A DNA stretch of 64,000 nt, from the NCBI RefSeq assembly GCF_000021565.1, contig NC_012440.1:1628210-1692209 (forward strand). The letters are read 5' to 3'. This DNA is from Persephonella marina EX-H1. GTDB lineage: Bacteria > Aquificota > Aquificia > Aquificales > Hydrogenothermaceae. The position numbers were made by a program, and so were the translations under genes. Below, one piece after another: positions 47,186-51,190 of this stretch (position 1 is the first letter of the stretch; each line of letters opens with the position of its first letter). The notes beneath the pieces were generated by a model. It saw nothing but the letters and a program-made list of their open reading frames with translations, had not been told where the DNA came from and did no database searches.

Positions 47186-47608
47186 ATGTCGGTGGAAAGG
47201 ACGCTTATGCTTGTCAAACCTGACGCAGTAAGAAGAAATCTTGAAGGAAAGATTATAGCTCATGTTCAGGAGAAAGGTTTTAAGCTTGTTGCACTGAAAA
47301 AGCTTAAGCTTACAAAAGAACAGGCTCAACAGTTCTATATCGTCCATAAGGACAGACCTTTTTATGATGAACTCTGTGAGTTTATGTCTTCAGGACCTAT
47401 TGTTGCTATGGTATGGGAAGGAGAGAATGCTATATCAAGAATAAGGGAGATAATGGGCGCAACAAATCCTGAGGAAGCTGAAGAGGGAACGTTAAGAAAG
47501 TTATATGGAACTAATGTAGGGGAAAATGCTGTTCATGGATCAGACTCACCGGAGTCTGCCAAAGTTGAGATACCATTCTTCTTCAGCAGGTTAGAGATTG
47601 TTGAGTAA
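47186..47608 (+). CDS. ndk: Nucleoside diphosphate kinase
   Basis: 140 residues, normal length. Motifs: ERTLMLVKPDAVRRNLEGKII, the active-site histidine in GENAVHGSDSPESAKVEI, and REIMGATNPEEAEEGTLRKLYG. Balances NTP and dNTP pools using ATP. The ATG is preceded by CAGGAGG. It overlaps the next gene by 11 bases. Confidence 0.98.
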   Translation: MSVERTLMLVKPDAVRRNLEGKIIAHVQEKGFKLVALKKLKLTKEQAQQFYIVHKDRPFYDELCEFMSSGPIVAMVWEGENAISRIREIMGATNPEEAEEGTLRKLYGTNVGENAVHGSDSPESAKVEIPFFFSRLEIVE

Positions 47609-48098
47609 GATCATTGATCTTCTGATCCTGTTTATTCTTGGAGTATTAGCAGGATTCAATATATTTTTAACATTTATAGTAGCACCTGTTCTTTTCTCAA
47701 ATTTAGATAACAGACATGCAGGGGAGATCATGAATCTGATCTTCCCCTATTATTTTTCATCAGGATGGATTTTAGGTATAGCTGTATACTCACTTTTTGC
47801 CCTTAAAACTGTTAAAAATAAAGAGATAATAAAGAAGTTTAAACTTTTTGTTGTAGCACTTGGACTTTTAATAATACTGAATATGGCATTACATAAAACG
47901 GTTCTTCCTATAGCCAGATCGTTAAATATCCAGTATTACACTCTCCTTAAGGAAGACAAAAAGGAAGAGGCTAAAATAGTAAAAGATAAGTTTAAAAAGG
48001 TTCATGCTGTCTCAAGTTCAATCAATCTGATAAATCTCATACTCGAGATCTATCTTTTTCAGCATTTCTTATTAAAGATAAGAAAAAAAGAGGATTAA
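47598..48098 (+). CDS. DUF4149-like membrane protein
   Basis: 166 residues with four membrane helices (about 6-28, 45-65, 75-95 and 135-158). The first contains GFNIFLTFIVAPVLFSNLD, the pattern of DUF4149/TMEM205-like proteins. TTG start (47598 or 47601), overlapping the end of ndk. C-terminus is basic (KIRKKED). Function unknown. Confidence 0.75.
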   Translation: MLSKIIDLLILFILGVLAGFNIFLTFIVAPVLFSNLDNRHAGEIMNLIFPYYFSSGWILGIAVYSLFALKTVKNKEIIKKFKLFVVALGLLIILNMALHKTVLPIARSLNIQYYTLLKEDKKEEAKIVKDKFKKVHAVSSSINLINLILEIYLFQHFLLKIRKKED

Positions 48099-48155: not shown

Positions 48156-48539
48156 ATGACTGAGAAGAGGTCTTCTGTTTTAAACCAGATATCTGTTATT
48201 ATCCTGCTTGGATCTTTTTTTGGAGCGTTTTTTGTAGGTTTTCTTGTCTATTTACTTATCTCAGAACACGATAAGGAGGGAGCTTTAAAAAAAGCATTTT
48301 TTTCTTATATTATTACCCAGGCTGTGTTTCTTGTTCTTGTTTACATTATAAGGTTAAGTATAGATAAAACTATAATCTCTAAAATAAAAAGTATAACCAG
48401 AGCTATGGATGAGGTAAGTCTCGGAAATCTTGATGTTGAAGTTAAAGCATCTGGAAATGATGAACTGACTGATCTTGCAGAATCTTTTGAGAGAATGAGA
48501 ATCAGTATGAAAACAATTATTGAAAAATTAGAAAGATAA
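48156..48539 (+). CDS. Two-helix membrane protein ending in a HAMP domain
   Basis: 127 residues. Two membrane helices (about 12-35 and 48-68) separated by a very short loop, followed by a HAMP domain (about 68-120; STIISKIKSITRAMDEVSLGN-type AS1, LDVEVKASGNDELTDLAESF) and no output domain. HAMP modules usually relay conformational change to kinases or MCP signalling. Here the chain ends at the HAMP AS2 helix, so it must act through another protein. First gene of the GTPase module; a small hairpin covers its ribosome site. Confidence 0.85.
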   Translation: MTEKRSSVLNQISVIILLGSFFGAFFVGFLVYLLISEHDKEGALKKAFFSYIITQAVFLVLVYIIRLSIDKTIISKIKSITRAMDEVSLGNLDVEVKASGNDELTDLAESFERMRISMKTIIEKLER

Positions 48540-48578
48540 AAGTTATAATCGGGTTGTAAATATGTATGGGGGACTGTA

Positions 48579-49547
48579 ATGAATATAGAACAGATTCTTA
48601 AGGATCATATTAATAGTCTTTACTCAAAACTTTCACCTTCTTTCATATCCATTTATTATCATGAAAAACCTCTCATTACTAAAACGGTACTATCTGATAA
48701 GAAAAAAAGGCTTGAAGAAACGCTTGGCCTTATAATATACAAAGGTCATCAGATAAATGAGATCATTCCTGAATTCGGTGAGGAATATATATACACAGAA
48801 GGAGAGGATGTCCAGATATACATACACTTTGTTACTCCAGATATATCAATAGTGACTCTCTCAGAAAACAAGATCAAGTTTTCCCTATTAAAACTGGAAC
48901 ATGAGATAGTAGCAAGGGATCTAAAACAGTACGTGGATCAGATAAAATCCATGGCAGAAGGCAAGGATGAAAAATCTGAAGGTGCTACGTCTGTACCTGT
49001 AGAAGAGGTAAAGGAAAAAGAAACAGAACAAAAAGTTATAAAAGAAGAAGAAAGTTCCGATAAGATAGAAGAGTATACGGAAGATATTGAGGAACTTGAA
49101 AAAGTTTTATCTGAAAGTACAGAGGAAAAATCTGAATATGAGAAGGAGATAGAGCAGTTAAAGGATCAGGAGGTTGTTGAGGAGGAGGCACCTTCCCTAG
49201 AGGAGTTACTGTTGGAGGAAAAAGCAGAAGAAGAGATTGAAGAGGTTGTAGAAGAAGAGTCTCCTCCATCCTTAGAAGAGATATTGATTGAGGACAAGGA
49301 AGAAGTTGTTCAGGAGAATATAAATTATTTAGATGCATCTATACTGGATAAAATTTACAAAAATCTGGCAAAGGAAATGGGACCTGTAGCAAGGATAATT
49401 TTCAATCAAAAGATGAAGGATCTTAATATAGATAAGGAGAAACTTTCAACCGATCAGGTAAGAAAACTGATTGATGAGTTGTCTCAAGAAATACTGGTTG
49501 AAAGTAGAAGGGAAAGGTTTATAAAGAACTGTAACAATCTGATATAA
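48579..49547 (+). CDS. Acidic adaptor with Roadblock-like N-terminus (unnamed family)
   Basis: 322 residues in three parts. Residues about 22-112 have the order of strands and helices of a Roadblock/LC7 domain: YIYTEGEDVQIYIHFVTPD and ISIVTLSENKIKFSLLKLEH line up with the canonical neighbour's LYVKGSKGYMIFTGIKDLAV and LGVLAPSNAKLGLLLMEIKR. Residues about 128-248 are a Glu-rich, low-complexity linker with two copies of PSLEE(L/I)L(L/I)E(E/D)K (205-215 and 230-240). Residues about 252-310 form a helical tail with KEMGPVARIIF, which resembles a motif seen at the ends of some bacterial kinases and adaptors. No enzymatic residues. I infer a scaffold for the GTPase module; family unnamed by me. Confidence 0.7.
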   Translation: MNIEQILKDHINSLYSKLSPSFISIYYHEKPLITKTVLSDKKKRLEETLGLIIYKGHQINEIIPEFGEEYIYTEGEDVQIYIHFVTPDISIVTLSENKIKFSLLKLEHEIVARDLKQYVDQIKSMAEGKDEKSEGATSVPVEEVKEKETEQKVIKEEESSDKIEEYTEDIEELEKVLSESTEEKSEYEKEIEQLKDQEVVEEEAPSLEELLLEEKAEEEIEEVVEEESPPSLEEILIEDKEEVVQENINYLDASILDKIYKNLAKEMGPVARIIFNQKMKDLNIDKEKLSTDQVRKLIDELSQEILVESRRERFIKNCNNLI

Positions 49548-49581
49548 TTGAGTTAGCTTTAACTAATAATTCAAGGGGGAT

Positions 49582-49944
49582 ATGATGGCTGATAAATTTA
49601 GCGATGTTCTTCAAACTGTAGTCAGAGATTCTGGTTCTGATGGGGCGATTCTTGTAAGTACTGACGGTCTGGCTATTGCATCTGTTTTACCTGAGGATGT
49701 TGATGAGGATAGGGTTGCGGCTATGGGGGCAGCTATACTCTCTCTTGGTGAAAGGGTTACAGCCGAACTGGAAAAGGGTGAACTTGAACAGCTTTATGTT
49801 AAAGGTTCAAAAGGTTATATGATATTTACAGGTATAAAGGACCTTGCAGTATTAGGGGTACTTGCACCATCAAATGCAAAATTAGGATTACTCCTTATGG
49901 AGATAAAAAGGGCGGCTAAAAAGATTGAAGAGCTATTAGGGTAA
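49582..49944 (+). CDS. Roadblock/LC7 domain protein (MglB-like)
   Basis: 120 residues, one canonical Roadblock/LC7 domain: FSDVLQTVVRDSGSDGAILVS, TDGLAIASVLPEDVDEDRVAA, AAILSLGERVTAEL, and GYMIFTGIKDLAVLGVLAPS. Such proteins dimerise and act as GTPase-activating or regulatory partners of Ras-like bacterial GTPases (MglB for MglA, CvnB in conservons). It lies between the acidic adaptor and a DUF4388 gene, 6 bases before the latter. ATG-ATG start at 49582/49585. Confidence 0.92.
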   Translation: MMADKFSDVLQTVVRDSGSDGAILVSTDGLAIASVLPEDVDEDRVAAMGAAILSLGERVTAELEKGELEQLYVKGSKGYMIFTGIKDLAVLGVLAPSNAKLGLLLMEIKRAAKKIEELLG

Positions 49945-49950
49945 AAAGTA

Positions 49951-50646
49951 ATGGCAATTACCGGAACGCTTGAAGTATTTAATTTTATTGACATTTTTCA
50001 GATTTTAAAAAAGGATAAAAAAAACGGTATCCTGGTAGTTGAGGACAATAAGAAAAATCTTGCCGTTTACTTCAAAGATGGGGATATAGTTTATATCAGG
50101 GATGTTCCTAAGGTCTTTTATATATACCTTGATGTTGATTTTTCTCAGGTAATGAAAAAGGAGAATATAAAAAAAGAAGATCTCTACAGGATGCTTGTCG
50201 CAAGACTTCCTATTCTACTTGCAATTAAAAAGGGAAAGTTCTCTTTCACATCAGGTTTTATAAAGTACTCAGACGATATAAAGCCTCTCGTTCCCGTTGA
50301 AAAGATAATAATGTATCTAAGCCGTCAGCTTACCGAAAATGAGGTTGAAAGAAAGATATCCGATATGAAGCTTGTCTTTGAAAAAACTGAAAACTGGGAG
50401 AGTATAGCAAAGAATGCACATCTAACAAATATAGAAAAGAAGATACTTGCTTTAATAGATGGGGAGAGATCTGTAGAAAAGATCATGGAAGAGGCAAAGG
50501 TAAATAAACTCACACTCCAGAGAGTTCTCTACGGTTTTCTGGCAGCAGGAATTATACAGAGGAAGAAAAAGGTAAAAAGAAAGATAGGGTTTGATCTAAC
50601 TAAAAATTTACTGAGTAAAATAATAGCAAGGATAAAAGGATTATAA
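49951..50646 (+). CDS. DUF4388 / winged-helix adaptor
   Basis: 231 residues. The N-terminal half (1-115) is DUF4388 (PatA-like): ITGTLEVFNFIDIFQILKKDKKNGILVVE, KNLAVYFKDGDIVYI. A C-terminal helical region (about 150-205; LTNIEKKILALIDGERSVEKIMEEA) resembles a winged helix with a following LQRVLYGFLAAGIIQ. DUF4388 proteins often accompany response regulators and MglA-type GTPases. No phosphorylation site is seen. The stop is one base from the GTPase start. Confidence 0.85.
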   Translation: MAITGTLEVFNFIDIFQILKKDKKNGILVVEDNKKNLAVYFKDGDIVYIRDVPKVFYIYLDVDFSQVMKKENIKKEDLYRMLVARLPILLAIKKGKFSFTSGFIKYSDDIKPLVPVEKIIMYLSRQLTENEVERKISDMKLVFEKTENWESIAKNAHLTNIEKKILALIDGERSVEKIMEEAKVNKLTLQRVLYGFLAAGIIQRKKKVKRKIGFDLTKNLLSKIIARIKGL

Positions 50647-50647
50647 G

Positions 50648-51190
50648 ATGGGAGAAAAAGGAAAAAACCAGATAAAAATCGTGGTGGCAGGTCCCTACGC
50701 TGCTGGAAAAACACAGTTCATAAACACCGTAAGTGAGATCCAGACAGTCCAGACAGAGGCAAAAACGACAAAGTCAGACGAAAAAACGGTTAAGAATCAC
50801 ACAACCGTTGCTATGGATTTTGGAAGGATAACTATTGATGACAATCATGTACTTTATCTTTTTGGTACACCTGGACAGGAAAGGTTTGATTTTATGTGGG
50901 ATATACTCGGAAAGGGTATGGTTGGTCTCGTTGTTCTTGTTGACAGTACTGACCCTTCAACATTCCACGAAGCTAGAAAGATCATAAACTACTTTGAAAG
51001 TAGATATCCTGCACCATTTGTTGTTGGATGTAATAAACAGGATCTTAAAGGTGCGTGGGATCCTCAGGATATAAGAATAGCCCTTGATCTTAATGATGAT
51101 GTAAAGGTTCTCCCCCTTGTTGCTCTAAGTAAGGAGAGTGTTAAAAATATACTTCTTGAGCTTTTAGAGGAGATAGCAAAACATATCTAG
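50648..51190 (+). CDS. Ras-like small GTPase (MglA/CvnD-like)
   Basis: 180 residues. G1 P-loop GPYAAGKT (15-22), a G2 Thr in the HTTVAMDFG segment (51-59), G3 FGTPGQERF (72-80) with a glutamine at the catalytic-like position, G4 NKQD (129-132) and G5 ALSKE (159-163). GTP-dependent switch, probably regulated by the Roadblock protein and possibly by the DUF4388 protein. HTTVAMDFG and LYLFGTPGQERFDFMW are closer to conservon-type (CvnD) and actinobacterial ATP/GTP-binding proteins than to Myxococcus MglA. Last gene of the module; overlaps the convergent amidohydrolase by 4 bases. Confidence 0.93.
   Translation: MGEKGKNQIKIVVAGPYAAGKTQFINTVSEIQTVQTEAKTTKSDEKTVKNHTTVAMDFGRITIDDNHVLYLFGTPGQERFDFMWDILGKGMVGLVVLVDSTDPSTFHEARKIINYFESRYPAPFVVGCNKQDLKGAWDPQDIRIALDLNDDVKVLPLVALSKESVKNILLELLEEIAKHI

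Follow-up and report, generated by a model that had tools for sequence, protein, structure and literature searches.

The window analysed here is a 64,000-nucleotide (nt) stretch of the Persephonella marina EX-H1 genome (1.98 Mb in two contigs), covering positions 1,628,210 to 1,692,209 of the forward strand of NC_012440.1. We focus on five open reading frames (ORFs) lying in a row on the plus strand at positions 48156–51190 of the window. They encode a membrane protein ending in a HAMP domain, an acidic adaptor, a Roadblock/LC7 protein, a PATAN (DUF4388) protein and a Ras-like small GTPase. A first-pass annotation, made from the sequence alone, had described these genes as a small-GTPase signalling module lacking a kinase; its coordinates and the gaps between successive genes (39, 34, 6 and 1 bases) agree with the ORF list of the window. 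Domains were annotated with Pfam and NCBIfam, structures were examined with AlphaFold and Foldseek, and sequence profiles were searched against PDB sequences. The features are as follows (aa, amino acids):

48156–48539, plus strand: HAMP-ended membrane protein, 127 aa (Pfam HAMP, 2.5e-11)
48579–49547, plus strand: adaptor (the 'acidic protein'), 322 aa, net charge −40; predicted Roadblock fold, acidic linker and STAC domain
48579–48971, plus strand: Roadblock/LC7-fold domain of the adaptor, residues 1–131 (AlphaFold, Foldseek)
49311–49544, plus strand: putative STAC domain of the adaptor, residues 245–322, motif EMGPVA (profile match to Af1502)
49582–49944, plus strand: stand-alone Roadblock/LC7 protein, 120 aa (Pfam Robl_LC7, 1.2e-17; 63.9 bits against a cut-off of 23)
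49951–50646, plus strand: PATAN (DUF4388) and winged-helix protein, 231 aa (Pfam DUF4388, 1.6e-21)
50648–51190, plus strand: Ras-like small GTPase, 180 aa (Pfam ATP_bind_1, 1.4e-19; Arf, 1.2e-10; Ras, 1.9e-9)

The HAMP protein is predicted from hydropathy to carry two transmembrane (TM) helices (about residues 13–35 and 47–68) joined by a short loop only, with no extracytoplasmic sensor domain. HAMP occupies residues 72–117 and is followed by 10 residues up to the C-terminus; the cytosolic part is thus HAMP alone with a 10-residue tail, as in Af1503-type receptors. At the other end of the operon, the GTPase scores above the NCBIfam small_GTP cut-off (44.9 against 42.5 bits), its motifs G1 (GPYAAGKT), G3 (GTPGQ) and G4 (NKQD) are conserved in 16 orthologues, and its PDB matches include MglA (E 1.5e-4). 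No kinase, HisKA, HATPase or DUF742 match was found by Pfam in any of the five proteins, DUF742 being searched up to E 1. The PATAN/winged-helix protein, kept across Aquificota, was modelled with a pLDDT (AlphaFold's per-residue confidence) of 88, has a C-terminal helix at residues 213–230 and bears a net charge of +15. Foldseek relates this model to subunits of GATOR1/SEAC (E 4e-3, one match with probability 0.96 over 69 columns), and Pfam gives a sub-threshold match to HTH_NPRL3. GATOR1 is a GTPase-activating protein (GAP) for Rag GTPases; these fold resemblances of the modelled PATAN protein are too weak to build on.

The second gene product gave no Pfam match over its whole length. The first-pass annotation had regarded it as a plain acidic scaffold, a description that we abandon in view of the AlphaFold, Foldseek and profile results, which point to a second Roadblock domain fused to STAC. 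In the AlphaFold model of the window protein, run with six relatives, the N-terminal domain follows the order helix-strand-strand-helix-strand-strand-strand-helix (H-E-E-H-E-E-E-H) of Roadblock proteins, with block mean pLDDT mostly above 85 and a dip to 70 near residues 61–70. Its top Foldseek match in the PDB is Myxococcus MglB (6hjm; E 7.4e-6, probability 1.00, TM-score 0.83 by target length), and further matches include other MglB proteins, Asgard Roadblocks and Ragulator subunits. The profile of this domain also finds Roadblock proteins from other modules. When aligned by hhalign with the operon's own Roadblock, it was collinear over 114 columns with a raw score of 23, against 10–15 for three unrelated profiles, the formal probability being only 10%. 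Pfam did not assign Robl_LC7 to this domain at the sequence cut-off in any of the 14 orthologues. Judged from the models, the N-terminus of the adaptor is a Roadblock fold.

The following 117 residues (131–247) are predicted to be disordered and contain 49 aspartates or glutamates. In the window protein, the motifs SLEELL/SLEEIL stand at residues 206 and 231 of this linker. Among 14 adaptor orthologues, 13 have a SLEEIL-type motif one to four times within the acidic linker; in the fourteenth (L038) the only match falls outside the linker. Such repeated short motifs may serve in binding.

The C-terminal part was identified by profiles, Pfam giving no informative family there. A profile of 14 adaptor orthologues (A2) matched Af1502 with its C-terminal part (E 0.007) and MglB with its N-terminal part (E 0.6). 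The STAC domain is defined by Af1502. With a pooled profile of 20 C-termini from the window family and Aquificaceae relatives (A6), Af1502 (5a1q) was reached at E 1.2e-5, a value that depends on the members chosen, and the next match stood at 0.17. The STAC motif LGPx(x)A reads EMGPVA in the window, with M for L, and its G and P are invariant in the 20 sequences. In known STAC domains this motif lies between the first two helices of a four-helix bundle built from two hairpins; AlphaFold here places three helices, at residues 254–281 (a long one, across the GP), 291–302 and 308–319. The adaptor thus appears two-headed, with a Roadblock and a STAC domain at the two ends of the acidic linker.

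A link to Archaeoglobus fulgidus was also obtained for the first gene: the best PDB match of the window's HAMP protein family (profile A3) is Af1503 (4gn0, E 2.9e-7). Since the HAMP family is broad, this match by itself means little, but two adjacent genes here match two adjacent Archaeoglobus genes, and the pairwise match carries weight. In the archaeon, translation of the Af1502 gene is coupled to that of Af1503. Archaeal receptors of the Af1503 type lack an effector, their only cytosolic part is HAMP, and STAC proteins are often their genomic partners (PMC4834066). Elsewhere STAC joins SLC5 transporters to two-component domains (PMC4834066); its role was called unclear in a 2026 preprint (PMC13022988). 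The likeness extends to gene adjacency, to HAMP as the last domain, to the GPxxA-type motif of the STAC helix bundle (5a1q) and to an ERxRxSxK-type HAMP end in the PDB alignment. It has limits: Af1502 is a bare STAC domain, whereas the STAC of the window shares a protein with a Roadblock and is encoded alongside Roadblock, PATAN and GTPase genes, and the window pair has no MgtE-type transporter as operon partner. From these sequence comparisons, the HAMP and STAC genes of the window are probably the same neighbouring pair as Af1503/Af1502, joined to a Roadblock/PATAN/GTPase core. This provides a better precedent than the conservon-derived sensor, reduced to a HAMP relay, that had been proposed for the first gene.

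The end of the HAMP domain itself distinguishes these proteins. Among 27 HAMP proteins surveyed in four genomes, 11 stop 7–14 residues past the HAMP match, and 10 of these 11 are at STAC loci; the other 16 continue for at least 216 residues beyond HAMP and none is at a STAC locus (Fisher p 1.3e-6). A C-terminal signature [FI][ED][RK][MI]Rx[SN][ILM]K, FERMRISMK in the window, is present in 11/11 HAMP-ended and 0/16 other HAMP proteins. The corresponding p of about 8e-8 is descriptive since this wide pattern was set after viewing the sequences, and the narrower ER[MLI]Rx[SN][LMI]K flags fewer. Af1503 reads SIERLRRSLK at the same position in the PDB alignment. A second HAMP-ended protein of the same genome (C2:467110-467520; L161:5105-5542, minus strand; 145 aa) also bears the signature. 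No STAC gene was seen beside it; its surroundings, syntenic in another genome (G030, L162), comprise a nitrite/sulfite reductase-TusA fusion gene and a sigma-54 activator gene. As the genome has one STAC gene, this protein may share the adaptor of the window.

We then considered whether the genes are kept together in relatives. Across the 13 relative loci mapped in the window's family, Hydrogenothermaceae (f1), the order HAMP–adaptor–Roadblock–DUF4388–GTPase is kept as far as contigs reach, except in the genus g3, which lacks the HAMP gene; it usually lies 3' of ndk and of a gene for a DUF4149 membrane protein. In four genomes of the family, each with a completeness of 96% or more (G001, G004, G012 and G019), the GTPase, the HAMP orthologue, the adaptor and the DUF4388 protein are all absent; the stand-alone Roadblock was not searched for there. 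Conserved order and co-absence of the parts tested rule out chance neighbours. Together with the linkage of HAMP-ended, STAC, Roadblock and GTPase genes in Aquificota and Chloroflexota described below, they bear out the expectation of the first-pass annotation that the genes would be conserved together. Across the phylum the GTPase (E ≤ 1e-60) was found in 90 of 136 genomes, and STAC in 80 of 136, representing 23 of 30 genera. Most loci of Aquificaceae (f2) have Roadblock–DUF4388–GTPase without the first two genes, and family f3 keeps DUF4388–GTPase with no adjacent Roadblock.

The association of STAC with HAMP was counted at 50 loci outside the window's family, chosen by their STAC matches and not by HAMP, and comprising 53 STAC ORFs (ORF calls in draft genomes are mechanical). 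A HAMP-ended gene, stopping 0–7 residues past the HAMP profile match, adjoins the STAC ORF on the same strand in 47 cases, mostly with an overlap of 4–20 nt. Chance adjacency is near 1%, as estimated from about nine HAMP genes in about 2000. Among the six exceptions, L232 is at a contig end, L235 has a receptor-like ORF broken off early and L226 is on a draft contig with no HAMP ORF called; no adjacent HAMP gene was seen at L155, L203 and L206.

Other lineages wire the same parts differently. An Aquificaceae variant has the order Roadblock–GTPase–STAC protein (about 300 residues followed by STAC)–HAMP-ended receptor, with a GTPase about 25–32% identical to that of the window. Outside the membrane its receptors carry Tll0287-like (1.3e-29) or dCache_3 (1.4e-23) sensor domains; extracytoplasmic sensor domains were found in relatives at L151, L156 and L250, the types in relatives being Tll0287-like, dCache_3 and dCache_1. 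In genus g17, two HAMP-ended proteins accompany a 225–231-residue STAC protein, whose N-terminus is Roadblock-like by eye only, with no GTPase beside. In one class of Chloroflexota, 8 of 298 genomes carry STAC. At L244 and L246 a PATAN-winged-helix-STAC protein (DUF4388 4.9e-23 at L244) adjoins a HAMP-ended receptor, with a Roadblock gene at both loci and a GTPase gene at L244. L247 encodes a 208-residue Roadblock-like and STAC protein followed by HAMP-ended receptors, a Roadblock and a GTPase. At L248–L250, STAC proteins adjoin HAMP-ended receptors near a fusion of a response-regulator receiver-like N-terminus to a Ras-like GTPase. The fusion partner of STAC is therefore a Roadblock in some lineages and PATAN elsewhere, a swap expected of members of one complex.

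Two further arrangements were observed around related cores. At L068, L069 and L070, a Roadblock–GTPase pair followed by a PATAN-like/HEAT protein lies beside an EAL-GGDEF protein instead of HAMP/STAC, which suggests a sister module linked to cyclic di-GMP. In some Aquificaceae (L048:5302-6027, L079:1032-1742, L084, L087, L088 and L092), a 236–241-residue two-TM coiled-coil protein is encoded 5' of Roadblock–PATAN–GTPase; Pfam detects no HAMP in this protein, which by eye looks like a divergent HAMP type.

Several known systems share parts with the window. MglA/MglB of Myxococcus and Thermus offers a Ras-like GTPase with the G1, G3 and G4 motifs, a Roadblock gene (here two genes upstream of the GTPase) and the MglB-like fold of the adaptor's first domain, but MglA/MglB systems have no linked HAMP/STAC relay. 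The stand-alone Roadblock does not reach the NCBIfam MglB equivalog (13.3 against 200 bits), a weak test as that model represents one lineage. A 2014 survey by Wuichet and Sogaard-Andersen (PMC4316618) reported PATAN genes in the neighbourhood of MglA-family GTPases belonging to groups 1 and 5, among them those of Aquificae and Chloroflexi, and cited an earlier analysis for MglB homologues near PATAN proteins. The adjacency of GTPase and PATAN in the window is shared with these groups; STAC and HAMP-ended receptors are not mentioned in the passages of the survey considered here. From the taxonomic range and PATAN neighbours given there, the GTPase may belong to MglA group 5. That DUF4388 is here a homologous replacement of DUF742 is no more than a suggestion, and PATAN beside MglA-family GTPases was already on record (PMC4316618). 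Finally, in the SLC5-STAC histidine kinases CbrA/CrbS, STAC likewise couples a membrane part to a signalling part, with a transporter as input and a kinase as output there, in contrast to HAMP input and Roadblock/GTPase output here.

Taken together, these results are probably best explained by a transmembrane-to-GTPase switch operating without a kinase. The HAMP-ended protein would be a dimer in the membrane, with no output domain of its own, and its HAMP end would dock on STAC in the product of the neighbouring gene, the adaptor. For the Roadblock of the adaptor, the partner would be either a second copy of the same domain or the separate Roadblock protein. Together with the PATAN/winged-helix protein, the Roadblocks would associate with the Ras-like GTPase and serve it as GAP, as exchanger or as both. 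When the HAMP bundle changes, STAC would relay this to the Roadblock and the GTP/GDP state of the GTPase would shift; this shift would alter its place or activity at the membrane. The GAP and exchanger roles are borrowed from MglB (PMC6876712 among others) and from conservons, in which MfpD, a homologue of CvnB, acts as a GAP and the homologue of CvnC is probably an exchanger (PMC13343842).

Several observations weigh against this switch. The parts, the lack of a kinase domain and the conservation uphold the kinase-free module proposed in the first-pass annotation, but physical contact, the direction of signalling and the GAP or exchange roles are what we infer from parts, adjacency and fusions in sequence. 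In the genus g3 the other four genes are kept, but the locus lacks the HAMP gene and a close homologue of it was found nowhere else in the genomes. Class-level relatives (f5) have a PATAN-like and STAC protein with a HAMP receptor and no GTPase or Roadblock nearby. Conversely, Aquificaceae and f3 keep the PATAN–GTPase core without an adjacent STAC–HAMP pair, and the core can therefore work without this pair; PATAN neighbours of such GTPases without HAMP/STAC are also on record (PMC4316618). With almost no extracytoplasmic part, the HAMP protein of the window may be no more than an anchor, or it may sense either the membrane or some partner. The assignment of STAC itself depends on a single solved relative and a pooled profile, the window family's own profile reaching Af1502 only at the E of 0.007 given above.

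One alternative is mere anchoring. The HAMP protein and STAC would then do no more than hold a Roadblock/GTPase polarity switch at the membrane or a pole, much as p18/LAMTOR1 tethers the Ragulator Roadblocks, and the GTPase cycle would be set by other inputs. Such a tether fits the near absence of an extracytoplasmic domain in the window protein, the Ragulator subunits among the Roadblock fold matches and the genus g3, which manages without the HAMP gene. However, the same HAMP-ended architecture bears true sensor domains in relatives (Tll0287-like, dCache_3 and dCache_1), and HAMP is a relay domain, unnecessary for anchoring, whose end carries a conserved signature. We consider anchoring alone unlikely.

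A second possibility, which we hold to be very unlikely, is that the HAMP–STAC pair regulates a solute transporter and that the GTPase core is merely co-transcribed. Regulation of transport has been proposed for Af1502/Af1503 and CbrA. STAC is associated with SLC5 transporters, and genes of the Af1503 type with genes for transport (PMC4834066, PMC13022988); an ORF for a transporter of the SNF family lies 1.1 kb upstream in the window, syntenic in several genera. In other genera, however, the transporter gene is missing from the locus while the adaptor is a Roadblock-STAC fusion in all, and STAC-Roadblock or STAC-PATAN fusions recur in other lineages.

Slighter still is the chance of a transcriptional system in which the PATAN/winged-helix protein would be a DNA-binding output released by the GTPase or the Roadblocks. 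Its winged-helix region has sub-threshold matches to helix-turn-helix families of transcription factors and its net positive charge would suit such a role, but no DNA-binding family is reached at the cut-off, the nearest folds are the weak GATOR1/SEAC matches and not regulators, and in Chloroflexota the PATAN-winged-helix unit is fused to STAC.

The actinobacterial conservon (CvnA-D) resembles the five genes in that a single operon encodes a HAMP membrane protein and a small GTPase along with a Roadblock and a third adaptor, and counterparts of CvnB and CvnD are present (Robl_LC7 at 1.2e-17 and small_GTP above its cut-off). It differs by its kinase-like CvnA and its DUF742 protein CvnC, both missing here, by the extra STAC-Roadblock protein of the window and by phylum; with no kinase and no DUF742 domain detected by Pfam in the five proteins, membership was rejected. 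A degenerate conservon, one component of which would be phosphorylated in trans by an unlinked histidine kinase, is highly improbable: it would account for the similar parts (HAMP, Roadblock and GTPase) and for the HAMP-bearing kinase-like CvnA of conservons (PMC4316618), but HisKA, HATPase and DUF742 domains were not found in the five proteins and the nearest relatives of the HAMP/STAC pair form a kinase-free archaeal pair.

We regard the module as a variant of receptor–Roadblock–GTPase signalling with a fair chance of deserving its own class. More tentatively, and with slightly less than even confidence, we suggest a distinct prokaryotic signalling class in which HAMP-ended receptors act through STAC-bearing Roadblock/PATAN adaptors on Ras-like GTPases, with no kinase or methyl-accepting domain. 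We know of no effector for HAMP-ended receptors, including Af1503, the solved and much-used model HAMP. By adjacency and gene fusion, the operon and its relatives tie such receptors and STAC to Roadblocks and small GTPases, which gives a testable output path. If true, this would identify the partner of HAMP-ended receptors such as Af1503 and imply that a membrane receptor can drive the Ras-like GTPases of prokaryotes with no phosphorylation step. It would also represent a little-known route of bacterial signalling across the membrane, in a deep-branching heat-loving bacterium and with variants in a second phylum. With its two Roadblocks and a membrane tether, the module may be compared to Ragulator, which in eukaryotes scaffolds the Rag GTPases by means of Roadblocks. 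The PATAN–GTPase neighbourhood (2014) and the association of STAC with HAMP-ended receptors (2015) were known before; among open-access papers, none was found to connect either STAC or HAMP-ended receptors with Roadblocks or small GTPases, papers behind subscriptions lay outside the search, and novelty is to that extent unproven.

The first-pass annotation had also suggested pili, motility or surface polarity as an output. The tie to pili and motility found no support: all 46 high-quality relatives have pilT, whether they carry the module or not, as do 59 of 61 relatives overall, including module-less ones. Since pilT is present irrespective of the module, its co-occurrence neither supports nor excludes pili.

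Two further features lie close to the operon:

47598–48098, plus strand: DUF4149 membrane protein (Pfam, 1.6e-17), TTG start, overlapping ndk
48520–48549, plus strand: promoter-like site 5' of the adaptor gene, TTGAAA-N18-TATAAT, sigma-70-like, 11/12 consensus matches; weak evidence

The DUF4149 gene is syntenic and 5' of the HAMP gene in most Hydrogenothermaceae loci, and in the genus g3 it is followed directly by the adaptor gene; its membership in the module is uncertain. In the promoter scan as a whole, sites were no more numerous than in shuffles. Given the position of the sigma-70-like site just 5' of the second gene, the other four genes may in part be transcribed without the HAMP gene.

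Paralogues of the GTPase were observed in two settings. At L051, L053, L059 and L060 a paralogue 43–48% identical to it is found with a 76–77-residue protein and a Roadblock, and the paralogue comes after ATP synthase genes at L051, L053 and L060. At L052 and L054–L056, GTPase paralogues stand alone beside an SMC-like gene.

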